From positions 9,671,701-9,735,700 of the forward strand of contig NC_092631.1 of assembly GCF_039555335.1 (NCBI RefSeq): DNA of 64,000 nt, given 5' to 3'. Below the pieces are notes generated by a model. It ran no database searches. It saw only the letters and a program-made list of their open reading frames with translations, and was not told where the DNA came from. Source of the stretch: Amphiura filiformis (lineage: Eukaryota > Echinodermata > Ophiuroidea > Amphilepidida > Amphiuridae). The translations under genes were made by a program, and so were the position numbers. This document shows, one piece after another, positions 2 through 64,000 of this stretch. Positions within the stretch are counted from its first letter, which is position 1. Each line of letters starts with the position of its first letter.

Positions 2-847
2 GCATGCGGGTGATTGTCCTGCGCATTTTGACACCTCAATCACTACTCTACGAAAAGATATGAATGGTTAAGTAATACGAGGTCGAAAAATGAAAATTGC
101 AAAAAGGCCTATTCCAGTTTTCCGCATAAAAGAACACAAAAAACAACAAACATGCAGATAACATTTTTTTGTTTAATTGCTGAGCACATTTCAGGCATCA
201 TACTGCCGCTACCAACTTCACTTGAGATTAATCTCTTTCTTTACCAGTCTTTCAATACTTTGTGTGTCCACCGTTGGCTTCCCTTGCAGCAGCCACGCCG
301 CGTCTCATGCTCCTAACGAGGCGTCGAATGTTACCTTGCTCAACCCAGTTCCACTCGTTGATAACGATGCGACGCAATCCCACCACTGTTGTATCTGCCT
401 TTATCTTCTTGTTGACTCGTCTCTTGTGCTGATCCCAAAGGTTCTCCAAGGGGTTAAGATCAGGGCTTCTGGAGGGCCACTCAAGTGTCTCAATTCCTTC
501 TGCTTCCAGGAATGCAGCTGGTAATCATGACCTGTTTTGAATCCCTTTTCCAAATCCATCTCTCAAAACGTAAATGTCTTAGTACCCACTCACCTTTGTC
601 TTTGATCATTCATCTGCACAATAGGATTATCCAACATGCATCAATTAAAATGCTTTAAATTAAAATTGAAAACGCGGGAATAATGAAACCGTCTTGGATC
701 AGTGAATCAGCTCTAAAACCATTGAATAGGCTTCTTTGCCATTTTCATTTTTCGACTTCGTGTTACTTAAACATTTATATCTTTCCTCAAGAGTGTCGTA
801 GGGTAGTGATTGAGGTTTCAAAATGCGCAGGACAATCTCCCGCGTGC
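2..847. mobile_element. Tc1/mariner-type element, internally deleted
   Basis: Imperfect terminal inverted repeats of about 50 bp are seen at 2-52 and 795-847; both contain GATTGTCCTGCGCATTTTG and CCTCAATCACTA. A TA dinucleotide follows the right end (848-849), as expected for a TA target duplication; the left flank is at the window edge and cannot be checked. Only the 3' end of a transposase lies inside (252-530, minus strand), so this is a deletion derivative that would depend on a full-length element. Confidence 0.8.
252..530 (-). pseudogene. Tc1-like transposase, C-terminal fragment
   Basis: Read on the minus strand, the frame gives a WPSRSPDLNPLENLW block, the signature around the last catalytic acidic residue of Tc1/mariner DDE transposases. 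It continues through RRLVRSMRRGVAAA to the usual GGHTKY end and a TGA stop at 252-254. Upstream of about 530 the frame is lost and the first two catalytic aspartates are absent, so only roughly the last 90 residues of a protein of about 340 remain. It lies between the inverted repeats of the element at 2-847. It cannot be active alone. Confidence 0.85.
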
Positions 848-970
848 TATTATTTAGCAAACGTACAAAATTGGTCGCTAGATTTTAATAGTGGGTAAAT
901 TTCCTAACCATAAAGAAACTTTTTTTGCGTAGTTTATATGGGAATAAGGTTGTCTGCAAAAATGGCGACC

Positions 971-1545
971 CTTTATTCAAAATGGCCGCCAAAATCTCAT
1001 ATAGTGGCATTTTAATAGCAATTTGAAGTTATTGTGCGATTTTTTATTTTCTTTGCAGATATGGTGCAATATTGACTCAAGCCTATTTTTGTAAATGAAA
1101 AATAATGATAGAGGACGCTTTTTCAAAATGGCCGCCAAAATCAGGCGGTGATGGAAGCGATATCGCCAATTTTGAGGTCGCCATTGGATTAACACATAAT
1201 CATGAAATCTTCACAAACAATTCTAAATTTGTTATGTGGTGTCAAAGCAAAATTATCTTACTCTAAAACCGTCGGGGTACGACAGTGTACCACATTGCAA
1301 GTATGGTAATTTTCCATTTGTAATTGCTAACCGTGTATTTTGAATGGGGCTGTCAGCCCTGTATCTTCGCCAGCCTCGTACGTCACGTGTTGCGCTTCCT
1401 ATGCCGCCTGGCCAAAATGCCTTAAAATCACATATAATGACATTTAAATAGCAAAAAATTGTATTCTATTTGAAAATATGGTGTAATATTGACTAAAACC
1501 CACTTCTGTAACTGAATTGCTGTAATAGAGGGCGCTTTTCAGTGG
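971..1545. repeat. Two diverged copies of an interspersed repeat
   Basis: 971-1140 and 1412-1545 share a block with a GCAATATTGACT-like core, followed by AGAGG-CGCTTTTC. The first copy is flanked by the same AAAATGGCCGCCAAAATC string at 977-995 and 1126-1143. The second ends at a CAGTGGCGTAACTAGGG string (1540-1556) that looks like a hAT-type terminus. No coding potential seen. Confidence 0.5.
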
Positions 1546-1556
1546 CGTAACTAGGG

Positions 1557-2186
1557 TTGGTGGCGATATCAAATATTTTCTGATTGGACATGTTGGATGA
1601 AGGAAACACTTGAGGTTTTGACAAAAACCAATCACACACTGCAAAAACTGTGTCTAAAGATTGAACACTTTTTTGTCATTCGTAAACACGTGTAAAATCC
1701 AAACACCAATGTCAAAATTCAAAACACCGAGTGTTTAACATGTATAGCATTTAAACATGACTGTTTACATATCGAGGACAAGATAATGTCTAAAATGGTG
1801 GTTAATCTCTAGACACAGCTCCAGCTCTTATGATGCTATGCACTCAACCGTGTAGTATAACACAGACTGCGTGGAGACTAGACTCGCTGTGCTGGAAATA
1901 TCTGTGTAGTATATCGAGGTGGAAACTGTGCGTTTATAAGAGAAACGTTTTTGTAGTCAAACCTAATCATATGAATATGGCCTAAAAAATCGTTTGATTG
2001 GCGTAACCCTACCGACCCTAAAAATAAGCCCGACCCTAGACTATTTTTCTTATTTTTTTGCAACAAATATTTACGATCCACGATTCACGATTTACAGCTT
2101 AAAATGTGTGTATTTTTTTTAAAATGCCGACAGACCTACCCTAAAGCTACTGACAAATTTCTAGAGGGTCCCCGTTTTTCAACTTT
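1557..2186. other. No recognisable gene
   Basis: AT-rich sequence with frequent stops in all frames. I see no splice-bounded exon, tandem array or clear inverted repeat. Confidence 0.5.
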
Positions 2187-2501
2187 GGGGTCTCCGTTTT
2201 CCAGATTGACCTAGGGTAATCTGGAAAACGGGGACCCCTATTTTTTCTCTGTATTTTAGGACTGACTTTTTAATTTCTGAAAGTAGTAAGGACTTCTTAT
2301 ATATTTGTCCAACATACAAAACTTTAGGGTCTCCGTTTTCCGGATTGACCCAGGGTAATCTGGAAAACGGGCACCCCAAAAACGGGGACCCCTTAAAATC
2401 TCTTCATAATGCTTCAAACGAATTTTGAGGGGGGTCCCCGTTTTTAGGGTCCCCGTTTTCCAGATTGACCTAGGGTATCAAATCTGGAAAACGGGGACCC
2501 C
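2187..2501. repeat. Three successive 50-bp hairpins
   Basis: The same inverted repeat occurs three times. Stems are at 2187-2207/2218-2238 (21 bp, one mismatch), about 2326-2346/2357-2377, and 2446-2466/2481-2501. Each arm contains CCGTTTTCCAGATT or its complement, and the loop contains GACC(T/C)AGGGT. Extra single arms (GGGGTCCCCGTTTTT) lie at 2165-2178 and 2431-2445. The spacers (CTATTTTTTCTCT...ATTTTAGG) are also shared, so whole units were duplicated. Confidence 0.8.
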
Positions 2502-2615
2502 TATTTTTTCTCTCTATTTTAGGTCTGATGAGACTCCAAATCTCGCCAATATATACACCATGGATATACTATTATAATTTTAATTTCTAGTAAGGACTTT
2601 TTATATATTTTTGCC

Positions 2616-3056
2616 CCCCTAGACTTCTCCGTAGTCCACTTGCCGATTGTGCATACTCTGGCTATTGCATTTAAGCTTAAAAAATTCAATTAATTTGTGC
2701 ACAATTGATAGATTTTCACATCTGATCCTTTCAGTCACCGTACTCCCTTTGTCTGTTAGCTTCCGATTTTTAACTCGGGCTTTCGCGATTAATAAACGGG
2801 CAGATTCTAAAATTAGAATTCTTCAGTATTGAAGTACCATTATAGTTATGACATTATGATATGTTGCATTCAATAATATAAGCCTACATATACTTTACTT
2901 TTACTGTCACAACTATAATTATATAAACTTTTTCATAACCATTTTATACTAGTATTTTGATGTAATAAATATCAGTATAATTTCGAGTTCAACTGAATGC
3001 GTTCATCATGATTAATATTTTTATTTATCAAAAATCGACTATGGCATAGTCTAGCT
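2616..3056. repeat. MITE-like repeat, same family as 35318-36120
   Basis: This block is recognisable, in inverted orientation, inside the longer element at 35096-36570. Shared strings include GCATACTCTGG, AGATTTTCACATCTGATC and the self-complementary GACTATGGCATAGTC-like end (3039-3053; GACTATGCCATAGTC at 35325-35339). A C10 homopolymer follows at 3057-3068. No coding potential. Confidence 0.6.
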
Positions 3057-3647
3057 CCCCCCCCCCCCGCGGTTACTTTTGAAATATACATGTCAGCAAG
3101 CGAATTACCTCTGATTACAGTAAATTACTGTTGAACTGCCTCTGACTATATGAACTATACTCGTACTTCTGATCAGTTGATGTTGAACTACCTCTGATCA
3201 CAGTTACTGTTGAACTAGTAGGCCTACTTCTGATCACAGTTACCGTTGAATTCCTTCTGATCAGTTTAGGGTTGTAAAGGGGGGGAATGTCCGGGGGATT
3301 TTGGAAAGTTTCCGGGAATTTTGAAGGGCCCGGGAATATTGGGAAATTTGGAAATTTTCAATTATTGCCTTTTAGTATGTTTTTAACTTGTATTTTAATA
3401 TGTAATCATTCAGAAAGCATATTTAAAGCAAATTTAATCTTTAACAACATATACCGTAAACGTTCGCCTAATGGCGCTATGGAGTTCATGGAAATGAGAG
3501 AGCGCCATCCCTGTAAAAGCCGACTATTATCACTGATCATTAAGGGTACGTGTAGTTAAAGGATGAAACCTATCGACACATACAATTATGAACAAGATCG
3601 AACAAACTTGTTCATGATAATGCGGTAATCATTCACCTGATACGTTG

Positions 3648-3727
3648 TGGCCCAGTGAGCAGAGCATTAGACTATAGTGCGAGGATAAAGAGAACTTGTG
3701 GAGAAGATTGATGGTTCGAATCTCATG
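3648..3727 (+). other. tRNA-like pol III promoter remnant
   Basis: An A-box-like TGGCCCAGTGAGCAG is followed about 55 bp later by the B-box-like GGTTCGAATCTC (3713-3724). The intervening sequence does not fold into a convincing cloverleaf, so this is more likely a SINE head or decayed tRNA copy than a functional tRNA. Confidence 0.45.
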
Positions 3728-5014
3728 CAGTAATTTCTGACAGATTATGATGTCTGTCAATGTTTTTTTCTGATTTGAGGAAATTTTATTCTCTATTTTC
3801 TTGATTTTATCTTTAACATTGTTTATATAATTTTATTATTTTATCTTGTATGTGTCTTTTTTCATGATTCTTTGTTTTTCGTTTCATTTTAGAGTAACTC
3901 AATCCATTCAATCAAATGTTGTAATGAACCTATTTGATTGTATAGGCATTTGTTATGTGTGTGAGACGAACTGTCGCGTGCGACAAGTCTTTCAATTCGC
4001 GCGAGTGTCCTTGCCTATGCATCAGTGGTCATAAGAGGTATATCATTTTATTCGAAAGGGAGGGGGGAGGGGTCCCAAATATACGGGGGTCATAAAATCT
4101 TGGAAAGAATAATAGGAGGGGGTCATAAAATGTTTTATGACCAAAATGTAGGAGTCACACGATGACCACAGAAAGTGTGTTATTTTATTCAAAAAGACTG
4201 ATTTCAATACAATTTTGGGGTTTGGGATCATAAAATTTTTGTTGCCGAAATAGGGGGTGCGTAATTTTATTGACGCAAACGTTTTGTAAATTTGGGACAC
4301 CCCTCCCGAAAAAAATGATAGCCCTCTAAGAGGATTCAAAAGATAACCTCTGCCCCAATAATCCCTAGCTATATTTGTTTGAAACTGTTCCACGGAGGAT
4401 GTATCATAATAGGCTCAGTCTTCAACTGATATAAATAAAATTTGAATGAGTGAACGAACAAAATCATACAACGACCAACTGAATAGAGGCTGTGCATGAC
4501 GTATCATCCCGTAAATATGGCGGACTACTCAAATGCATTCAACAAAAGCATGATTGCATCTACCGCGACAGTTCGTCTCACACACATAACAAAATGCACT
4601 ACGATCAAATAGGTTGATGACAACATTTGATTGAATGGACTGCACTGCGCCATGATTACGGGGAAGAAACCGGTTCAAATCCTTTGTTTGGAGCCAATCG
4701 ATAAACACAAGGCCTTTATAGCTATCATTGAATACTGGCTAGGATTCCACAACACAATGAGAACATGTTATAAGGCGCTTTGGAAGGCACACAATACCTC
4801 AATGGCTTTCCATATTATGAGCACTCAACAACTATTCAGTATCGAAGCCCGGTATCGAAGTTACGTAATGTTGCTATGTCAACGGGATCACGCGCTTAAG
4901 TATAAATGAACCACGATCGAAACAATCAGTACACAAAAAAGGCATACCAAAATAGCGTGATCGTAATGATCGCCATACAAACAGCGCTTGGTTCCGATAC
5001 CATCACGGAGTTAC

Positions 5015-5083
5015 GTAACTACTTCGTGGTCTGATAGTTATATGATCAATGGTCTGATCTGCTTGGGTTCGATCCTTTTAAGA
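5015..5083 (+). other. tRNA-like pol III promoter remnant
   Basis: CGTGGTCTGATAGT resembles an A box and GGGTTCGATCC (5067-5077) is a good B box. A further lone B-box-like CGGTTCAAATCC lies at 4671-4682. Both are inside the inverted-repeat element at 3452-5827. Confidence 0.4.
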
Positions 5084-5404
5084 AAAGAAAAAATAGCTGA
5101 TCATTTACAATGCATTAATGAATAAAGTAATGTAGTTACACAATTTGAAACATTGAGGCCGTTCTATTTTTCAAAGGTCATGTAACTGTTAAATGTAGTG
5201 GAATATATCACGCATTGATAGGTAGCAGGTGGAGCAAATTTTGTCAGCGGTTTTTGTTGCCGTTTGTTCGCAGTGCCTATTTATCTAAAAAAAATAAGAA
5301 AATTAAAATTAAATTAAAAAAAATTCACAATATTCATTCGTAAAATGGGGACAAAATCCAAAAACATTTCTTGACCCTTCTTCACATAAAAGTGGGGGCA
5401 GAAA

Positions 5405-5478
5405 TCAAGATTCGAACAAGTACCATTCACCATTCAAGGCGCACCCTCTACCGACTGAGCTAACGGGTCAGACAATAG
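5405..5478 (-). other. tRNA-like pol III promoter remnant, minus strand
   Basis: Minus-strand reading gives TTAGCTCAGTCGGTAGAG, a near-canonical tRNA A-box/D-arm, then TGTTCGAATCTTG as B box/T-arm with normal spacing. Acceptor-stem pairing is poor, so I call it a tRNA-derived repeat head rather than a gene. It opposes the copy at 3648-3727 inside the same inverted-repeat element. Confidence 0.5.
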
Positions 5479-6059
5479 AAGGGTGTCATTTTGAACTGAA
5501 GAATATTAAAAAATATGAAGAAATTTCAATGTTATAAAAAAAATTACCAAAATGAGTTAGGTATAACGTATGAATCGATTTACAAATTAAGTCCAATGGC
5601 ACTTTGAGAAAAAATACCTGAAGAAACCCCAAAACATTTGCTGCTCTAGCAACTAACCTAGTGACCCAAAGTATTGGGTCATGTCACGATATTTTTTTCT
5701 GAGGCATTATGTCCAGGTTGCTCAATTTAACACACACGTATCCTTAATGCTGTTGAGATTTTACAAGGATGGCGCTCTCACATTTCTAAGAATCCAAAAG
5801 CGCCATTAGGCGAACGTTTACGGTATATGATGTTTACAATAAGATAAGTGCTACCATTGAAGAATAGGCCTTGTTTATAAAAAATTATGTTCTTTTACCA
5901 CAGATTTTCAGTATTTCTGTTGAACTACCTCTGTTGAACTAAATAATAAACTACCTCTGATCAGTTGCTGTTGAATTACCTCTGATCACAGATACTGTTG
6001 AACTACCTCTGATCACCGTTACAGTTCAGCTGTCTCTGACCAGATACTGTTAAACTACC

Positions 6060-6357
6060 TCCATAGGCGTAGATCCCGGGGGATGGGGGTGGTAAATCCC
6101 CAATATTTTTCTAGAGGGTTAGTCCATACAATCACCCCCCCATGTTGACGCCAGATAATGGGTTTCTGACCAAATTAACCTCATATTTGCCCATTTTAGC
6201 CCAAAAGTGCTTCAAAATAGTAAAACTTTTCGCGCGCTTCGCCTTCGCGCGCAATTGTGCCACAAACTTATTCTGTCGCCAAAAGGTGCTGAATTGACTA
6301 TAGCCTACTTGAAGAATTTTTTCCAACTCCACCCCCCCCTAATGTCAAAGAGAAATC
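6060..6357. mobile_element. Short element, GGCGTAGAT family
   Basis: Starts CATAGGCGTAGATCCC and shares with 14261-14597 the strings GGTAAATCCCC, CAATATTTT, CCATACAATCA, ATGTTGACGCC and the final AATGTCAAA-AGAAATC. It splits the minisatellite. AAACTACC is found on both sides (6052-6059 and 6358-6365), but this string is also part of the satellite unit, so it is weak evidence for a target duplication. Confidence 0.65.
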
Positions 6358-7261
6358 AAACTACCTTTGATCATTGATCACAATTACTGTTGAACTACAC
6401 CTGATCACAGTTGCTGTTGACCTACCTCTGAACACTGTTACTGTTGACCTATCTCTAATCACTAATACTGTTTAACTACCTCTGGTCACAGTTACTGTTG
6501 AACTACCTCTGATCACAATTACTACTGAACTACCTCTGATCACAGTTGCTGTTGAACTACCTCTGATCACAATTATACTGCTGAAGTACCTCTGATCACA
6601 GTTACTGTTGACCTATCTCTGATCACTGTTACTGTTTAACTACCTCTGATCACAGTTACTGTTGAACTACCTCTGATCATAGTTAATATTGAACTACCTT
6701 TGATCACAATTACGGTTGAACTATCTCTGATCACAGTTACTGTTGAACTACATCTGATCACAGTTACTGTTGATCTTTCTCCGATCACTGTTACTGTTGA
6801 ACTACCTCTGATCACAGTTACTGTTGAACTACCTCTGATCACAGTTACTGTTTAACTACCTCTGATCACAGTTACTGTTGAACTACCTCTGATCATAGTT
6901 AATATTGAACTACCTTTGATCACAATTACGGTTGAACTACCTCTGATAGCAGTTAATGTTGAAATACCTCTGATCAGCTGCTGTTGAACTACCTCTGATC
7001 ACAGTTTCTGTTGAACTACCTCTGATAGCAGTAAATGTTGAACTAAATGTTAAACTGATCAGTTGCTGTTGAATTACCTCTGATCACAGATACTTTTGAA
7101 CTACCTCTGATCACCGTTACAGTTGACCAGTTACTGATAAACTACCTCTGATTCGATTCGATTCGATTCGATTTTATTCAGCATGTTAAAATGGATACAC
7201 ATAACATTACAAACATTATATTGCACTTACAGGTAAAACTACATTCACATCGAGTCTCCGG

Positions 7262-7491
7262 GACATTTTGTGGACTTGGATAAAGTCCGCATACTCGACA
7301 GAGACAGCAGATGGTTCCAACGTGGAGTCAGAGAAGCAGTTCATATCAAAGCCAACCAACCATCTCTCAACAAAGACGGGGCCGGTTCAAACTTTCAGGA
7401 ATCTACGAGCTTCTACGAGTCTGTTATCAGGTCAAAGGTCAAGAAAGTCACGACCTGCTCACTCGCTGATGAAAGATGGAGTACCATCTGA
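7262..7491 (+). pseudogene. Penelope-like element, GIY-YIG C-terminal fragment
   Basis: The frame from 7270 reads DKVRILDRDSRWFQRGVREA, then HIKANQPSLNKDG, and after further residues ends SLADERWSTI. This matches my memory of the tail of the GIY-YIG endonuclease domain of Penelope-like retroelements: a conserved W-x-R-G-V-x-E-A-x-x-I block followed by P-S-L-N-x-D-G. There is no reverse transcriptase and no N-terminal part of the nuclease, so it is a dead fragment of about 75 residues. Assignment rests on motif recall; another nuclease-bearing retroelement is possible. Confidence 0.5.
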
Positions 7492-9433: not shown

Positions 9434-10280
9434 ATTCGTTCTGTTTGCGGATGACACTACCATCCTATATTCTCACAAAATCTTCAAGACAAAATAGAAA
9501 TGATTAATATCGAACTAAGTAAAGTTACAAACTGGTTTAGAGCGAATAAGCTATCAATAAATGTTGAAAAAACAAACTTTATGATTATGGGTACACAAAA
9601 AAAACATTTCATTTCAAAAGCAATACAAACGTAATGTTCGATGGAAGTATTCTTCCAAGAGTAAACAGAACGAAATTCTTGGGTATCATAATGGATGAAA
9701 ATCTTTCTTTTAAATATCACATTGAAACAATATCTAACAATATCTCAAAAAATGTAGGTATTATGCATAAGTTAAAATATTTTATTCCTAAAAGTATAAT
9801 GTATTGTATATATTCTTCATTGATAATGCCATATTTGAGCTATGGTATTTTGATTTGGGGAAATACACATATGATTTATTTGGACAAATTACTCAAATTA
9901 CAGAAAAGAGTCGTAAGAAACATTACTAAGAGTGATTTTAGGGCTCATTCAGCTCCACTATTCAAAAGTCTAAAGATTCTCACTATCTCTGACATGTAGG
10001 CCTATAAATATTATCTTGGAATCTTTATGTATAAGCATTCTGTTAATTTATTACCAATTATATTTGAATGTTATTTTATGAAAAGAAAAAATGTCCATAC
10101 CATAAACACAAGATAAACGATTACCAGTTGGTTAGAAATAAAACGGCTTTCTCACCCAGAGGAATAAAATCATCAGGTCCCATTTTATGGAATAAAATAT
10201 CTCATGATACACAAAATTCAAATTCTACTAACATATTTAAATCCAAATTTAAATCAGACTTAATAAGTCTCTATGAGTAA
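9434..10280 (+). pseudogene. LINE reverse transcriptase fragment
   Basis: FADD motif at 9442-9453 with ILYSH behind it. Next come TNWFRANKLSINVEKTNFM (from about 9526) and NRTKFLGIIMDENLSFKYH (from 9664). Then SLIMPYLSYGILIWGN and QKRVVRNI follow, and after a stop at 9997-9999 the region ILWNKISHDTQN...FKSKFKSDL (to 10280). These are RT palm motif C, motifs D/E and thumb of a non-LTR retrotransposon. Stops and frame changes near 9485, 9634 and 9999 make it non-functional. Confidence 0.8.
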
Positions 10281-25800: not shown

Positions 25801-28800
25801 TGTAGAGTATGATCACCTCTTGTGCTGTATAGTTGTTATTATGTTATTTCACACATTTTGCATATTAAAATGATGATTGAAAATATAGTTTATCTGAACT
25901 CATCATAATATATCCCAAGCCAGAAGTTGGATGTTAATTTGATGACATGTGTGCTCTATTGTCTCATGTAACACAGGCAAGAACCAGTGAAAATACAGCA
26001 AAAACAACAACTGTTTAATAATGGTAAATAAGTGATAGTATTATTTCATCAAAAGACAAATAAAAAATATGCAAACAGTCTTTAATTAGTGAAGTTGTGT
26101 TTAAAAGAAACAGCATGTAATTGTATGAAACAGCCATTGCAATGAATAATCAATGCATCAAGCTTCCAATATCCATATTCTATGTTATGGTAACATCTTT
26201 CTTGAATAAAATAATTGCTAAGGGGACAAATCAAAAGTTTGATGACATCGTATTACAGTCCTTTTGTTAGGGTGGAGGTGTCAAAAAGTCTGATTACGTT
26301 TGTTAAAAAGTAGTTGAAATATTGGTCAAAATTTATGTTTCAGGTTACACTTTTCAATATTTCACACAACATTTCAGGGAGGGAGGGGTCAGCTCAACTG
26401 CCTATAAGAAAAGCACTTTTGTTTATAGGACTTCATCAAACATTGGATTTGTTCCCTAAGTAGACAACAAGTGATGACATGCCAATAGATTGTGTATTCT
26501 GTAGCTTGTTTCAAAACTACAATGGTTATCAGCCTGCAAAATCATCAGTGAATACTCAGAAGACATATTTTATTAATTGTAAGAATTCTGATCAACAAAA
26601 GAAAAATCTATGATTGAGACATGGTTAATATCATATCTGCAAAGCATCAATATTATTAGAAAAATGCTGCACTTGACAACATATTTGTGCATGACCATAA
26701 GTGTGACTGCCAAGGTGCATGTGCCTGACCTCGCCATTGAGACAGGATCACACTTTGAATGTTCTAAAAATATGTAACAACATTAGATCTATGCGGTCAA
26801 AAGGCTATACTTTTTAAAGCTGCCTAGAATCGTGTGATACCCAGCTAGATTCAGAGGTCAAGTACATCGGCCACAAAATGAACACGTAATATCTCATTCG
26901 GCATCATTCTACATTGATAAAGCATCGTACATTAAATGTCAGCTTAGCTGCAATCTAAGTATTTGTGAATAGAATGTATTCATGAAATTGGTTCTCCCAA
27001 AAAGACTGTCGGCGTGAGTTTGAACAATGATACTCATTGACGTACATGTAAACAATAAAAATGCAGTTAAGACAATAACAATGTTCTCTCAGCTGTTAGC
27101 CTTCCAAAAGATCTGTTGTTAATATTCTCTAGATCAATGCAGTAAATCTCTTCAGAAATATGGAATTGAGAATCAATCAAATCTGATAAGTTTACAGGCA
27201 GTTAAACCTGAGTTGAGGATTTCATCATTTTCAGGCCATTTTGGGATGTTTTTGCTCAATTGTACACATTTTCAGATGTTTTTATGCAGTTTCAGGTTTT
27301 TCCATGAGAGTTACATTCTCATACCTAAATTTATGTATCCTTAGTTAATGTTTAAATTCGATCAATCAGGTATTCCTATTGCTTTGTTTTAACAAACTCA
27401 AAAGCTGCCAATTCTGAACCCGCCGTATCTTCATCTCGGTAATTTTAAGTGATTGGTTGCCCCTCCATCTCTGCCACACTATCCCTGTGTATTTATCCCC
27501 GGAAGAGCCCAGATATCGTCCATTCAGATTGGAACGTTGGCAAGATTTATACCACCAGGCTCCTTGGAACTTGACAGCACAGTTGCGTTTATGCATGGCA
27601 CATGAATTTTTGCATCGGTCGTTATCCCTGTCCTTGGTAGTAAAGGCGGAATTGCGATGGTAGGAGAGAGAATTTCCAGCATTTCCACTGTAATCTCCAA
27701 TAATAAGTTTATAGTTAGAGACTGCATCACCTATGCTAAATTTGATATACTGTGCATATGCGCTGGTACCATTGAAATCTTCCATGTCAATACGCAGGGT
27801 CCAATGTCCATTTCTGGTAAGTCGGCGAATTTGTCTCAAACCTAGCAAAACTCCCCTTCGGTGCTTCCAAAACCACGGACATAATCCACCCATCTTCGAA
27901 AAAAAGTGACGGATCCATCGAAGCGTCTTTGGAATACAGTCCAGCCGCCATCGTCAGTGTGCATATCACAGTACACAGTGAATGAACCCAAGTTGTCTTT
28001 CGGCGTGATGCTATATGGGCCGCTCACATCCGCTCCTCGTCTCAAGATATCTTGGCAATCCTGAGCTGGAGGCAGAGGCAGTCTTCTGTTGAGAACAGTC
28101 AGCTGGTTCTTCAGAAGCTTTGCAACAGTTCTGAAGTAAACACCCATTTTGAGAGACATTTTATCCAATTGTTTCTGCAAGTCATGAGACATCTTTTGGA
28201 AATAAGGAAATCTTTTCCTTCTATTGTCTTTATTTTGTGGAGGAGCTGACATGGTAGTCGCAGTTATCACATTTTCTGCCAGTGAGTCAGTAATCATTGT
28301 ATCGGTTGTCAAGTTCAAGGCATCTGCGACGCAATTCAAGCCATTACACTCACCAGTAGACTGTGGCTGTAGGGTTGATTTATTGATCGAAGTGCCATAA
28401 ACGTAGTTGATGCCACTTGCAAACATCATCATCAAAATGATTATGTACACAAAAGTCTTTTCCATGACTGCAGAAATATTCTTTGCCAGTGTGTATATAA
28501 AGCTGGTTTAATGTTGATATCTGTTGGATTTAGTTTCATCCAAGTATTTTGATATGAGCATATGTACAGCTGGTTGCAGTTTGTGTTGCCGCAAAGTATG
28601 ACCATGTGGGGGAGTGCCAAATTATGTGTAATACTAGACATGATTCAAATTTTCTTAGACACAAAAAGAATTAGACATACTCATGTGCAAAAAAACAACA
28701 ACAAACAAACAAAAAACACTCATACACAGTTAAAAATGCTGAAAAGATATCTAGATATACTTGAAGATAATACAGTCTGTAACAAGAAAATTACAATTTA

Positions 28801-58900: not shown

Positions 58901-61085
58901 GTATCAAGAGATACGCATAATCAGCTTTATTACTTTATACTTTTTCAGCATGTTATAACCTCTAGCCCTACACATTTCAGAAACTAACTCCTACCAAGTA
59001 GAAGTTATATTTTATAAAAATCATTTCATGTTCTAACAGATGAAACAAGACTGAATATGGCACGTGACACATAAATGGCATTTTAAATTCTTTAGCGGAG
59101 AATGTGCATAGTAGTAGTACTGCTTTGGGTCCGAGTCCGTTTTACGCTAAAGAAAAATATTTGCTTTGGGTACTTTTTGAAAAAACTAGTGATATACAGG
59201 TTGTAACCCTTTAGCTCCCATGTATTTTGACTGATTATGAACATTTCATTGACATAAAATTGAAAACCCCATGTGATACTAACCATTTCTTTAAAAATGT
59301 ATTTGAAATTTATAAATAAAAATTTAAGGTTTATGTCAAACTTGTGTTCAATTGGCATTTTTTCCTGATTTTAAATAGTTGGTAGCTGAGCTAGTGACCA
59401 AGATGAAGACACTACCCAAGGATGAACATATTCCTTTACAGCAATATAGTACAGCATTGGTACTTAAAGGAATTGCAAGAACATCATTTGGGGATTACTT
59501 CAAGGATGATAAAGCTTGCTTGGCATTCAGAAAGAACTATGACATTGTAAGTAGCTTTTTGGTATTTATCTCAGTCTGTCCACTGCGCATATTTTGTGTA
59601 CAAAGTTATTTTTTCTTTAGGTGTCATTCGCAGTCATTCAATTTTTATCGGTAAAGTGCTAGAATCATGTGGGTGACAGTAAAAGCACAAGCCTCTGCAG
59701 CTCAGGGTCATTAATATGCTCTTGTGAAAAAATAACTGGTATCAAATTTACCTGGACAAGTACCTTTAATTGCTCAATTGTCCCAGTGTAACCTGTATGA
59801 AACTCAGTGAGCTGATCCTAGCTGGGGAGGTTTTAATTGTTGTAATTTAGGGTTTGTGCTTCTTTGCTTCAAAACCCCTAGTTGTTATATTGGCTCTCAC
59901 ATGTTCCATATGGGTCATTCTTACAAAAAGTGGCCTTTTAGTGTTTTTAGCTATCTTTGATCCATAATTTTTCTATGAAATGTTTTCACTGGAATAAGAT
60001 GTTGATAGTTCAATACAACTCAATGAAACTCAACTTGGATATAATTGGATATATGAATACAAAACCCACCCCAAGTCCATACCTTGGCCAAAGCATGGGA
60101 AATTGTTGCTATAAATAGGCCTGTCATATGTATGAAAGAACAACTCAAATTCATCCTCTGTGTCTATTGAGCATGTGAAAAATAGCATGTATGAAAGAAC
60201 CACCCAAGTCCATGATTTGAGTCTTGTAATAACACATTGATTGAAATCCAGTATGTATAAAAGTCCACTTGTAACACATTCATTGCTGGAGAGTGACTTT
60301 TGGAAGAAAAAAAGGGTTTAATCAAGGAAAGTGTGTGGTTTATATATTACATGGCAGAATGCTTATCAACATTATACATACCTGTGTGCTTTATTTTGTA
60401 TTATCTTACTAGTGGTAATCTCGTTCCAACATTATTGTTTTTATATATGATTCAAAAAACCACCCAAGTCCAGTATTAAAAATGAACCCCACGAAGTCCC
60501 TGAAATGCTAATCGTCATACCCATACAGTTTAACCCACTCATTTGCTTGTTAAACTTACCATATTGACCAGGTAAATCTAACTGAAGGAATTAAAATGAT
60601 GCAAAGGTTTTTTTTCTCAAAATCACTTCCCATGGACTTGGGTGGGTTTTGAATTCATTTATTCAATTGTACTTTCCATTGTGTTTTCTGCGAGATATTA
60701 GCCTTCAAAAATGCCTGTCCCATATTCCATTAAAATTTCATTTAAAATATAAAGAATCATGCTTTCAATACTTTCTTTGCAATGGTTATTAGTGGTGAAC
60801 TTGTGTTCTATTTTTATTATGAAAATATTTTCCCCTCATTTATAAAATATTTTGATTTGTTTGAGTACCAAATATGGTGTCCCAAAGGACTGTATTACGA
60901 TATCCTCATATCAATCATAAGTAGCATCTTTAAGATAACCGCAAAGATAAAAGGTTATAAACAACTTTTTGCTATTAATCATTAACCATTTTTTCTCATC
61001 ATTTAGTGTTGGCATGAGATGGAACATAGTCTTGCACATGGACTTCCCGAGGAAGGCACTGATAGGGACAAGGCATTCAAACAAG
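52935..61085 (+). CDS. CYP20A1: CYP20A1, cytochrome P450 family 20 (5' half)
   Basis: Exons 52935-53006, 53787-53836, 55467-55636, 57165-57310, 59379-59546 and 61007-61085 join in phase to 228 codons plus one base; human CYP20A1 is about 460 aa, so the second half, including the haem-cysteine region, lies past 64000. Residues 1-24 (MLAFVIFAVTFVVVLIGAVI...) form the membrane anchor for the endoplasmic reticulum. TTIPGLDPSD and GNIPDIGKAGSMHDFLLDLH, followed by EDYGPIASFWWGTKL, match the CYP20A1 proline-rich hinge and first strands; the I-P-D-I and G-S-x-H-E/D-F-L spacing is specific to this family. Exons 4-6 (ADGRKRRNLYDKAFS, LVLKGIARTSFGDYF, CWHEMEHSLAHGL) cover helices C to F. Family 20 P450s are orphans, with no agreed substrate. 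Intron 6 holds a LINE on the same strand. Confidence 0.92.
53007..53786. other. CYP20A1 intron 1
   Basis: Short words such as TCAGGAAATTT recur at 53149-53234; CAATATTTATTGG and CCAATAAATATGG (53421 and 53500) form a loose inverted pair. No gene. Confidence 0.4.
53837..54465. other. CYP20A1 intron 2, first part
   Basis: The 135-codon open frame at 54026-54433 has no recognisable domain or codon pattern and is treated as chance. Confidence 0.4.
54475..54789 (+). mobile_element. tRNA-derived SINE with Deu-like body
   Basis: The head carries A box TGGCCGAGCGG (54491-54501) and B box GGTTTGAGCCCC (54534-54545), resembling a Leu/Ser-type tRNA. The body GTTGTGCCCTGGAGTAAGGC, ACTTTA and CTCCTCTCCACCCAGGTG resembles the Deu domain shared by DeuSINEs of deuterostomes. 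ACATATCAT flanks both sides (54466-54474 and 54790-54798). The tail is T/A-rich (TTTACCTTTTTACCTT). It looks full length and fairly young. It lies in CYP20A1 intron 2. Confidence 0.85.
54799..55466. other. CYP20A1 intron 2 remainder
   Basis: A GC-richer patch at 55200-55380 with TGGTACTGCAC repeated three times (55297, 55307-55317, 55326) and an AGGCCTGG; no gene recognised. Confidence 0.4.
55637..56810. other. CYP20A1 intron 3, first part
   Basis: No gene, tandem array or palindrome recognised. Confidence 0.4.
56811..56992. mobile_element. Palindromic MITE, GGGCTATTCCAG family, copy 2
   Basis: Starts GGTCATTCCAGTTGAATTCC and ends GGATTTCAACTGGAATAGCC; shares GACTCCATTTGAAATCTACA and CCCCCT with 39453-39637. 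CYP20A1 intron 3. Confidence 0.85.
57311..58438. other. CYP20A1 intron 4, first part
   Basis: Two TAGGCCTA octamers (57344 and 58087). No gene recognised. Confidence 0.4.
58439..58802. mobile_element. Palindromic MITE with TTAA flanks
   Basis: TTAA at 58439-58442 and 58799-58802 bounds GGGGGTACTAC...CACCCCTG and CAGGGGTGTAGTACCCCC. Inner arms CACAATTGTGTGCCTATTTTT-type and TATATTATAGGGGCAAGGAC pair closely. CYP20A1 intron 4. Confidence 0.88.
58803..59378. other. CYP20A1 intron 4 remainder
   Basis: No gene or repeat recognised before the exon 5 acceptor. Confidence 0.4.
59547..60054. other. CYP20A1 intron 5, first part
   Basis: No gene or repeat recognised. Confidence 0.4.
60055..60656. mobile_element. 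Inverted-repeat MITE with internal CCACCCAAGTCCA words
   Basis: Ends GAATACAAAACCCACCCCAA and GACTTGGGTGGGTTTTGAATTC. The same CCACCCAAGTCCA word recurs inside at about 60201 and 60460. CYP20A1 intron 5. Confidence 0.75.
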
Positions 61086-61526
61086 GTAAGCATTGGGCTA
61101 TTCCAGATGTATTCCGCACCCCCCCCTATAGAAGACATATAAAAAAAATAAAATTCCAGCTGGAATGGACTGGCAACACCGACTGGCAACACCGACTGGC
61201 AACACCTACTGGTGTAAGGTGTCCTTATGGACACTCTCTCACATTTTCCTGCTAACTGATGGAATCATATATTTCTCACAATTTTGGTGATGACTGATGG
61301 ATTTTGCTAAGCACATGGATCATTTTGATACATTTTGTTGAATGTTCGTCACCCAAAACCCACATTTTGAAAGGATTTTGTTGGATATTTTCATCAACAT
61401 TTAGCTAGTACTATAGTGCTATACTATATGTGCTGATCAGATGGATCAAATAACCAAGGTCAGTTACAGCTAAATCCTGTGTTGATCAATATTTTCACTC
61501 TTCTGATCAATTGACCAAATCTCACC
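61086..61526. other. CYP20A1 intron 6 start and LINE 5' region
   Basis: A fragment of the GGGCTATTCCAG palindrome lies at 61096-61165. GACTGGCAACACC is repeated three times in tandem (61168-61206). The exact start of the LINE is not visible; the tandem words could belong to its 5' untranslated part. Confidence 0.4.
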
Positions 61527-63785
61527 ATGACTGTTATCAATCAACCTTACCCATCCAAGTGGGTAAAGCTGTTCTGTGTACGGACTATTATATTATATAC
61601 CAGCATCTATGTATGGGAACTAAATCACCACTCCAGGTCAGTCACCGTTCTGCCTGATGAACTTATTAGTGGGCCTACATATAGGCCTACCCACCATTGC
61701 ATGAATGCGCTGATTACCGATACCATACCAACTCATCGATACTTCTCACCCTATGGCCGTTTCACCAAATGCCGTTACTCGTACTATGCAAACTCAATGT
61801 CCACGTTTCAAGTTCTACTCATTAGTGGCGACATCGAACTAAATCCCGGGCCCTCGAATCAACAAGGGGGACCCAGATGCGCCAACTGCAGTAGACCAAT
61901 CCGACATGACCATCGTAGATCTTTATGTTCTACTTGCCTCGAGCCTCTACATCTTAAGTGTTCTTCTCTTCCTAACTCTGTTCTAAAACTGAAGGATCAT
62001 CCAGTTCAAGAGTATATGTTCACGTGTGCTACTCAACTCCTACCTTTTGCGGATGCCTCATTTTTGACAGGAAGTTCTGAAAACTCTACCATGGACTCCT
62101 CCTCTGAAGCAAACTCTTACTTTGACTGTAGTGTTAATTACAATGATCTATCCATGCTTCTGCTCAATGCAGGCAGCATTGGCAACAAATTGGAAGAGCT
62201 TGTCAATTTAGTGTATAGTTTCACTATTAGACCCGCCATTATTGGCATATCTGAATCATGGCTATCTTCCAACATATATGACTCAGAACTCTCCATAAAT
62301 GGTCAATACACTGTTTTCCGTTGCGATCGCCAAACAAGAGGCGGTGGTGTATGCTTACTAATTATGAACTCTCTTAAACCTCGCTTATGTAATGAACTCT
62401 TATCTAAGAACTGTGAAGTGGTATGGGCTGAATGCAATCTGCATAAATGCAACCTTAAGATCTGTTGTTATTACCGTCCTCCCTATCGCAGCAGTAACAC
62501 TCTTCCCGATTTAAGTCATTGCATTGCACTTGCTTCGCGCTCAAATTCCCTCGATTCTAAACTTCTGGTCATAGGTGATTTTAATGTTAATCTCCTCAAT
62601 CAAGGTCACTACCTTTTTGATGATTTGTCAGATTTTTCTGCCAACCACAATCTTCATCAATTTGTCTCGCAGCCCACTTTTCATAGCCCGGGTATTAACC
62701 CGTCCCTCATTGACCACATTTATAGTAATGACCCTGGTTTAATCACTGGAGTTGCTAACCTCTCTCCAATCGGCGCCTGTCACCATTCGGTTATCTATTG
62801 TGGTCTTAACATCCGGCCAAACAAACCTAAGACTGTTTCCCGCACCATCTGGCAATACAGTAAGGCCGATTGGGTTGATGCAAACAGGCAACTCAGTGAT
62901 TATCAAACTCAGGACGGTAATGACATCAACTATGCTTGGGATCACTTTCATACATTTTATATGGAAGTTATGAATCAATGTATCCCTCTCAAACTCTTCA
63001 AGTGTAAGGCAAAAGAGCCTCCCTGGCTCAATGAAGAGTTACGTAAACTCTGTAGAAAAAAGCATAGTCTTTTTCGGAAATGGAAAAAATCTCAAAAATC
63101 TAGTGATTACACTAAGTACAAAGCAATTAGAAATAAGTTAACCAACAGACTTAAGTATGCCAAGCACAACTTTTTTGCTAGCCTTCTCGAAAATGAATCC
63201 CCAAGTAAGCGTTTTTGGGGTTATTGTAAAACTCGTTCTGGTCAAGCAACCATTCCTGACTCCATCCACTACAATGGTGTTTGTGCTAGCTCTCCAACTG
63301 ACATAGCCAATACCTTTAGTCAGTTTTTCGCTGAGTGTTTCAACCGTGCTGACGCCTCCAATACTCCCATTCCTCAGTACAACTTCAGTTCCACTCTTTC
63401 CTGTTTTTCCTGCTCTAGTTCTGATGTTCTCTATCTCATCCAAAAGCTTAACAACAATTCTGCTGCTGGGATGGACGGTATCACTAGTCGTATGCTAAAA
63501 AACACAGCTCCTTCTATTTGCCCCATCCTCTGCAGACTTTTTAATCTGTCGCTCATCACCGGCAGAGTCCCTGATGCCTGGAAGGTCTCCCGTGTTATTC
63601 CCATCTTTAAGGCCGGTGACCCCATGCTGTCACCAACTACAGACCAATATCTCTCCAACCAATCTGTGCTAAACTGCTGGAAAAAATCATCCACCGTAAC
63701 ATCTTGGATCACCTTGCCAGCAATGACATCCTCACCAAACGCCAGTTCGGGTTCCTTCCCAAATCATCAACATCCGATGCCCTAA
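61527..63785 (+). pseudogene. LINE pol: 2A-like, finger, endonuclease, RT start
   Basis: 752 codons. Residues 101-109 (GDIELNPGP) are a 2A-like ribosome-skipping motif. C118, C121, C134, C137, H142, C145 and C167 look like a PHD-type finger, but the last expected Cys is absent (FTCATQ). The endonuclease spans about 208-428, with ISESWL (E243), GDFNVN (D351, N353) and IDHIY (D396, H397). The final S-D-H triad position reads C-H-H (418-420). RT begins at AAGMDGITSRMLKN and VSRVIPIFKAGDP. Near 63630 the frame shifts; the other frame continues NYRPISLQPI and ALFDLSKAFDRVP (RT motif A) to about 63880, where a second shift occurs before GLTGPILSWLKSYLSNRSQL. The enzyme would make element cDNA at nicked target DNA. 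Confidence 0.88.
61827..61853 (+). other. 2A-like translational recoding sequence
   Basis: Encodes G-D-I-E-L-N-P-G-P, agreeing with the 2A consensus D-(V/I)-E-x-N-P-G-P, preceded by the hydrophobic FQVLLIS. At such sites the ribosome fails to form the Gly-Pro bond and releases the upstream product. Skipping here would separate a 108-residue N-terminal peptide from the finger-endonuclease-RT protein. Confidence 0.88.
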
Positions 63786-64000
63786 TCACTGCCCTTCATG
63801 ATTGGTATGGTTCTATTGAAGACAGGAAGAGTATTGTTATGGCCCTTTTCGACCTATCAAAGGCCTTTGATCGTGTTCCCACCACCACCCACTCCTTCGG
63901 AAACTTGGTGCTGTTGGGTTAACAGGTCCTATTCTCTCCTGGCTCAAATCATATCTCTCTAATAGGTCCCAGCTGGTTGCTGTGCATGGCGTTGACTCTG

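Follow-up and report, generated by a model that had tools for sequence, protein, structure and literature searches.

A predicted 2A-like site behind a 108-residue leader in a degraded APE-type LINE

The stretch of DNA analysed here, 64 kb in length and referred to below as the window, contains a degraded LINE of the APE type that is truncated by the window end. Its open frame is preceded by a TGA at 61512, has its first ATG at 61527 and closes with a stop codon ending at 63785 (Table 1). In phmmer searches, the protein of this frame matched LINE-1 ORF2 over residues 209-698 (best E 6e-6) and an R2 protein over residues 629-700. The reading frame changes somewhere between 63620 and 63722, and the second frame, which carries the reverse transcriptase (RT) fragment, is itself ended by a stop codon at 63920-63922, before the RT profile is complete. 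The RT assignment is supported in part by the sub-cut-off PF00078 match, the phmmer matches to LINE-1 ORF2 and R2, and an alignment up to the RT edge with L015, a related locus described below. Because this copy is broken in its RT, the 2A-like site that it carries is informative on the family and not on the activity of the copy itself. Eight residues separate the skip-site proline from the first Cys of the PHD-like finger, the first half of which aligns with the start of the PHD of L015; by eye, the last Cys of the C4HC3 pattern is absent (FTCATQ).

With respect to the region upstream, into which the element may extend, no ORF1 domain was found by Pfam in the four + strand ORFs of at least 60 aa between 58598 and 61255. 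When HDV-like ribozymes and other RNAs were sought around the start of the LINE, window positions 60000-62200 gave three matches, all far below cut-off, and RNA families sought over the window and the related loci L003, L004, L006 and L007 yielded nothing except a 5S rRNA in L003. A tandem GACTGGCAACACC (3.5 copies, 61168-61212) lies about 300 nt before the LINE frame and might mark the 5′ end of the element or be a flanking minisatellite.

Table 1. Features of the LINE and of its predicted leader, in window positions
Feature	Position	Strand	Remarks
Open frame with leader, 2A, PHD-like finger and APE, up to the RT edge	61515..63785	+	Ends after the RT frame change
Predicted upstream product, 108-residue leader ending NPG	61527..61850	+	First ATG, with A at -3 (ctcaccATGA)
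Possible signal or anchor, a hydrophobic stretch of the leader (WVKLFCVRTIILYTSIYV, residues 12-29)	61560..61613	+	Shuffle test
Alternative start at Met91, giving an 18-residue product ending NPG	61797..61799	+	Weak context, T at -3 and T at +4
2A-like site	61800..61853	+	STFQVLLISGDIELNPG/P; core and shuffle scans, motif rules from PMC12846837
Core octapeptide DIELNPGP	61830-61853	+	Predicted release between 61850 and 61851
PHD-like zinc finger	61878..62027	+	PF00628 at E 0.0033; 17.8 bits where the cut-off is 24
APE endonuclease domain	62190..62747	+	PF03372 E 2.2e-6; sub-piece PF03372 1.6e-7, PF14529 3.3e-6
Reverse transcriptase fragment, frame differing from the 2A ORF	63722..63886	+	PF00078 at E 5.7e-5; 23.4 bits where the cut-off is 29.6

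The sequence GDIELNPGP occupies residues 101-109 of the ORF starting at 61527, at the end of the segment STFQVLLISGDIELNPGP (residues 92-109), and the G108-P109 bond falls at 61850/61851. Specifically, DIELNPGP has in frame the required form (D/G/C/N)(V/I)ExNPGP, and it is the sole match to [DGCN][VI]ExNPGP in the six frames of the 64 kb window, where NPGP of any kind likewise occurs only once, in this core. At the DNA level, a degenerate pattern for the core matched once in the window and in 0 of 100 dinucleotide shuffles (mean expected number 0.00). A sequence-only reading of this DNA had taken GDIELNPGP to satisfy the 2A consensus, with the site placed at 61770..61860, a span that includes the bond, and this is borne out by the unique core and the empty shuffles. 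The same reading had described the residues before the core as helix-forming. VLLISG, whose G stands at p11 directly before the D at p12, fits the LLLLSG-like class of upstream sequences when read against PMC12846837, and this class describes VLLIS better than helix propensity does. The feature shared with StopGo upstream motifs 2/6 of that survey is an L-rich run ending in SG before the D at p12, although the survey covers RNA virus sequences whereas the window holds a LINE.

A comparable placement of the core was observed in other LINEs. We scanned genome_contigs with a pattern of three codons with T at the second position, an S/T/C-like codon and then GD(V/I)ExNPGP, and obtained six stretches, five of them LINE-type (L005 by APE alone) and one Ty3-like (L002). 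Each of the six is a retroelement, the evidence being weakest for L005, and the hydrophobic context, being demanded by the pattern, is not independent evidence in those six. Among the LINE-type loci, L004 has an RT match and an APE region detected by BLAST, L006 has APE and RT matches, and the sole match in L005 is to APE, at the end of a contig and next to ORFs of prokaryotic look, so that L005 is possibly a chimera. In L003 and L007, the 2A-bearing ORF (ORF1 by position) is followed by an ORF with APE and RT. No convincing Pfam match was found for the ORF1 of either locus; a PHD in L007 was seen by eye only, and the PHD region of the window gave no significant match to the zinc-finger region of L007 (best E 0.21). 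These relatives come from assemblies labelled bacteria or archaea, one of them a Bathymodiolus gill symbiont, and we infer that the LINEs in these assemblies are misbinned eukaryotic DNA.

An independent search of the same six assemblies, for PF14529, gave nine matches, seven of which lie in G003, the assembly of L004. Of these seven, L015 from the mussel-symbiont assembly contains an NPGP close to the N-terminus, and NPGP is absent from all frames of the remaining six; these six are partial elements, since L018 has no N-terminus and L019-L023 start, by eye, within about 30 residues of the APE, so that the first ORF of L019-L023 may lie elsewhere. In L015, the order is leader-2A-PHD-APE-RT, as in the window, with a PHD of 28.5 bits (above cut-off) and the variant core NSSDTETNPGP. 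Its T at p13 is outside the variants flagged as functional in PMC12846837, and thus the L015 site may be inactive; in that RNA virus survey, V and I are common at p13 and G is rare, occurring only with G at p12. Between the APE and the RT edge, the alignment of the window with L015 spans 522 positions at 25.9%, and the pol alignments with L004 (26%), L007 (26%), L006 (23%) and L003 (22%, over a shorter stretch) are likewise those of diverged lineages. Only about 190 nt (L004), 210 nt (L006) and 25 nt (L015) of the locus were read before the open frame, and an ORF1 may lie farther upstream in these three.

The core occurs 84-102 open codons into the 2A-bearing ORF in five of the six other LINE-type loci and 30 codons into it in the sixth. 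Taken together with the agreement of core and upstream run with published rules, this recurrence in diverged LINEs supports the view, already put forward in the sequence-only reading, that an APE-type LINE carries such a site close to the N-terminus. The motif with its frame and neighbours, as well as the position of the core in the LINE-type loci, can be read directly from the DNA, and a 2A-like site is their best reading. As for the background rate of such cores, a search without the hydrophobic part in 420 genomes belonging to four groups gave matches in the four centres and in none of the other 416; these are prokaryote assemblies, for which the scan bounds the chance rate and says nothing of 2A frequency in LINEs. 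In viral_contigs, a pattern that lacked the hydrophobic requirement matched once, at TGDIESNPGP in the phage-like protein of L001 (3590-3618), which has no hydrophobic run. This match is likely due to chance, and a bare core alone is therefore no proof of 2A. No relatives of the element were confirmed in viral_contigs by protein, RT piece or alignment, and none were found in phages and plasmids by tblastn.

We also considered whether the frame upstream of the core is translated. In the 2A frame, the number of codons open before the core is 105 in the window, 102 in L003, 84 in L004, 30 in L005, 90 in L006, 102 in L007 (a count to the contig end) and 97 in L015, such that six of the seven LINE-type sites have 84-105, the exception being L005. 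The other two frames are open for 0-39 codons before the core (39 and 2 in the window), apart from one of 69 in L006. When each leader was subjected to 1000 dinucleotide shuffles, the stop-free fraction was 0.012 for the window, 0.001 for L003, 0.003 for L004, 0.255 for L005, 0.283 for L006, 0.010 for L007 and 0 for L015, and openness combined over all seven gave a Fisher P of 4e-8 (with 0.001 entered for L015). Neither L004 nor L015 has a Met within 57 residues of the core, and a long leader is thus required in these two loci if AUG is used. Codon usage in the window leader showed no likeness to its pol above the upstream null, the first half of the leader being negative; among the three forward frames, the 2A frame had the highest score in L004, L006 and L007 and not in the window or L003, which is uninformative. 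Overall, the frame-specific openness suggests that the window leader is probably translated, and codon usage gives no sign of it.

The leader product has no nameable domain, as had been claimed from the sequence alone, and no Pfam match appeared up to E 10. Leader-leader similarity was significant in none of 15 pairs (lowest P 0.13). A BLAST stretch between the window and L015 over leader, 2A and PHD (E 2e-4 without composition correction) was not counted as leader homology, and an AlphaFold2 model of residues 1-200 from a single sequence (mean pLDDT 30.5) is meaningless.

A feature that several leaders do have in common is a hydrophobic N-terminus. Outside the 2A run, the strongest hydrophobic 12-mer starts in the first 20 residues in five of six leaders (about two expected), and the strongest 15-mer does so in all six. 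For 12-mers, the P values of the N-terminal maximum against shuffles were 0.0002 in L003, 0.0038 in L006, 0.016 in L015, 0.14 in L007, 0.44 in L004 and 0.074 in the window, where 15-mers gave 0.025; the result is hence marginal in the window and non-significant in L004 and L007. The combined P of about 4e-6 (12-mers) or 7e-6 (15-mers) comes from a post hoc test, devised after inspection of the same leaders, and rests mainly on three of them. The test is a shuffle statistic and not a signal-peptide predictor, and the version just given omits L005, which has no Met, and adds L015. An earlier version, using 12-residue spans in the first 45 residues and 2000 shuffles, gave a weaker result, with P values of 0.15 (window), <0.0005 (L003), 0.76 (L004), 0.69 (L005), 0.016 (L006) and 0.23 (L007). 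The suggestion that the upstream product might be signal-like, also made in the earlier reading, thus finds weak support in the window copy and better support in three relatives. A membrane- or secretion-directed leader is possible, and we propose it with less confidence than the skipping discussed below.

In 2013, Odon et al. reportedly placed 2A-like sites in the Rex1, Crack, L2, L2A, CR1 and Ingi clades, with activity in several and a correlation with single-ORF elements. The principle of 2A-like sites in non-LTR elements, including those of the APE type as the sequence-only reading had stated, is already established in PMC4981915, PMC11512398 and PMC5972666, and the window site adds a member to this known class. 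It resembles the APE-type elements in having an in-frame StopGo core within an APE-RT LINE, and L003 and L007 differ from these in carrying the 2A in the N-terminal part of an ORF that precedes the APE-RT ORF. Single-ORF PHD LINEs are represented by type IIIA, that is, CR1 subgroup 6 and L2 subgroup 4 (PMC4120745); they have a PHD finger that is N-terminal to APE-RT in one ORF, and the window has a PHD-like finger in the corresponding place, although this scores below cut-off. The SpNLR2A sequences of S. purpuratus (PMC4981915) are similar to the window site in N-terminal placement, in the hydrophobic run before the core and in a possible signal function. They differ in that SpNLR2A comprises 26 residues at the extreme N-terminus of immune receptors, whereas the window 2A follows a LINE leader of about 100 residues. 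An SpNLR2A-type N-terminal signal of about 26 residues is accordingly not what the window has, since the bond lies at residue 108 and a short form would arise only via Met91. In the case of SpNLR2A6, the same paper shows that 2A can decide between export and the cytosol. No shared leader before LINE 2As was evident among the matches listed, which are mainly from non-subscription literature, and two reviews that were searched contained no retrotransposon terms.

Taken together, these observations favor a reading in which the 2A/StopGo site of an APE-type LINE frees a 108-residue leader from a PHD-APE-RT polyprotein, to which we assign a probability of roughly 0.8. Skipping itself we infer from published StopGo biochemistry. 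Specifically, ribosomes would start at 61527 and make the leader, after which the nascent chain, with VLLISGDIELNPG inside the exit tunnel, would block the Gly-Pro bond. The leader would then be released with an NPG end, and translation would resume at Pro109 to yield the PHD-APE-RT polyprotein, the zinc finger of which would have a nearly clean N-terminus. By comparison with SpNLR2A6, we hypothesize that skipping may keep the polymerase out of the secretory pathway, with the read-through product being diverted.

Several other explanations were weighed against this reading. It is quite unlikely, in our view, that translation starts at Met91, in which case the product would be the 18-residue 2A peptide MSTFQVLLISGDIELNPG, a miniature SpNLR2A-like signal, and the upstream frame would be a 5′ UTR. 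Such a start would be in keeping with the N-terminal position and 26-residue length of the SpNLR2A sequences (PMC4981915), with the presence of a Met 8-11 residues before the core in the window, L003 and L006 (in strong context in L003), and with the missing coding signal in the codon usage of the window leader. Nonetheless, Met91 stands in weak context, unlike Met1 with its A at -3, a comparable Met is missing from L004 and L015, and 84-105 open codons in six of seven sites would be unexpected of a UTR.

The site could also be a relic, a former 2A that is now inactive or unselected in the family and has simply escaped mutation so far. We consider this unlikely given the agreement of the core with the published octapeptide and of the upstream run with a published class (both from PMC12846837), although the broken RT of the window copy and the variant core of L015 are points in its favor. 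A chance NPGP in an ordinary LINE protein is very improbable: the L001 phage-like protein illustrates that a bare core can arise in very large collections, but the shuffles (0/100) and the similar position and open leader in diverged LINEs argue against it here.

We tentatively suggest, while leaning against it on balance, that several diverged LINE lineages share a 5′ module independent of what follows, namely a leader of some 85-105 residues that has an N-terminus resembling a signal or anchor and ends in a 2A. Depending on the LINE locus, the 2A is followed by PHD-APE-RT, by APE-RT or by an ORF1 that looks, by eye, coiled-coil-like or as if it held a PHD-like finger. In such a module, the leader might direct LINE mRNA under translation to membranes or have a role there itself, and StopGo would free the replication proteins. 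Since the 2A of L003 and L007 lies near the start of ORF1 and not at the ORF1/ORF2 boundary, replacement of that boundary is not its sole use. We know of no settled purpose for 2A in LINEs. If a LINE 2A regularly releases a translated N-terminal leader, with or without an ORF1, it would not simply stand in for the ORF1/ORF2 boundary, and one could then test the leader as a LINE protein. If the shared module were real, it would imply a membrane step in LINE replication that is encoded by a fast-evolving and so far unnamed peptide, and a membrane role of this type would join other membrane hints in LINE replication, such as the esterase ORF1p (PMC3905857). Cellular uses of 2A are described as rare in PMC12846837.

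Outside the LINEs, L002 is a Ty3-like LTR-type polyprotein in one open frame on the - strand (2-7387), with RT, RNase H and integrase zinc domains above cut-off and a Gag-type zinc knuckle and integrase core under it. It contains two 2A-like sites, LSLLLCGDVEPNPGPP and PSLLRCGDVEPNPGPP, whose cores lie near 4419-4441 and 1791-1813; one site separates the Gag-like part from RT, and the other separates RNase H from integrase. No 2A sites in an LTR element were evident among the matches listed, mainly from non-subscription literature, and 2A in an LTR-type element may be new. In L003 (5943-6061 and 4669-5748), a full-length match to 5S rRNA lies about 195 nt from the start of the LINE, which has its 2A in the N-terminal part of the ORF that precedes the APE-RT ORF, and L003 is possibly a 5S-associated LINE. 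Elsewhere in the window, a frame at 9568-9996 (+) resembles by eye the C-terminal part of another LINE pol, with no convincing Pfam match; a gene with a fibrinogen C-terminal domain (PF00147) lies at 27369-28507 (-), split over two overlapping frames, and is suggestive of an animal source; and a 27-bp direct repeat forms a long array at 5963-7159.
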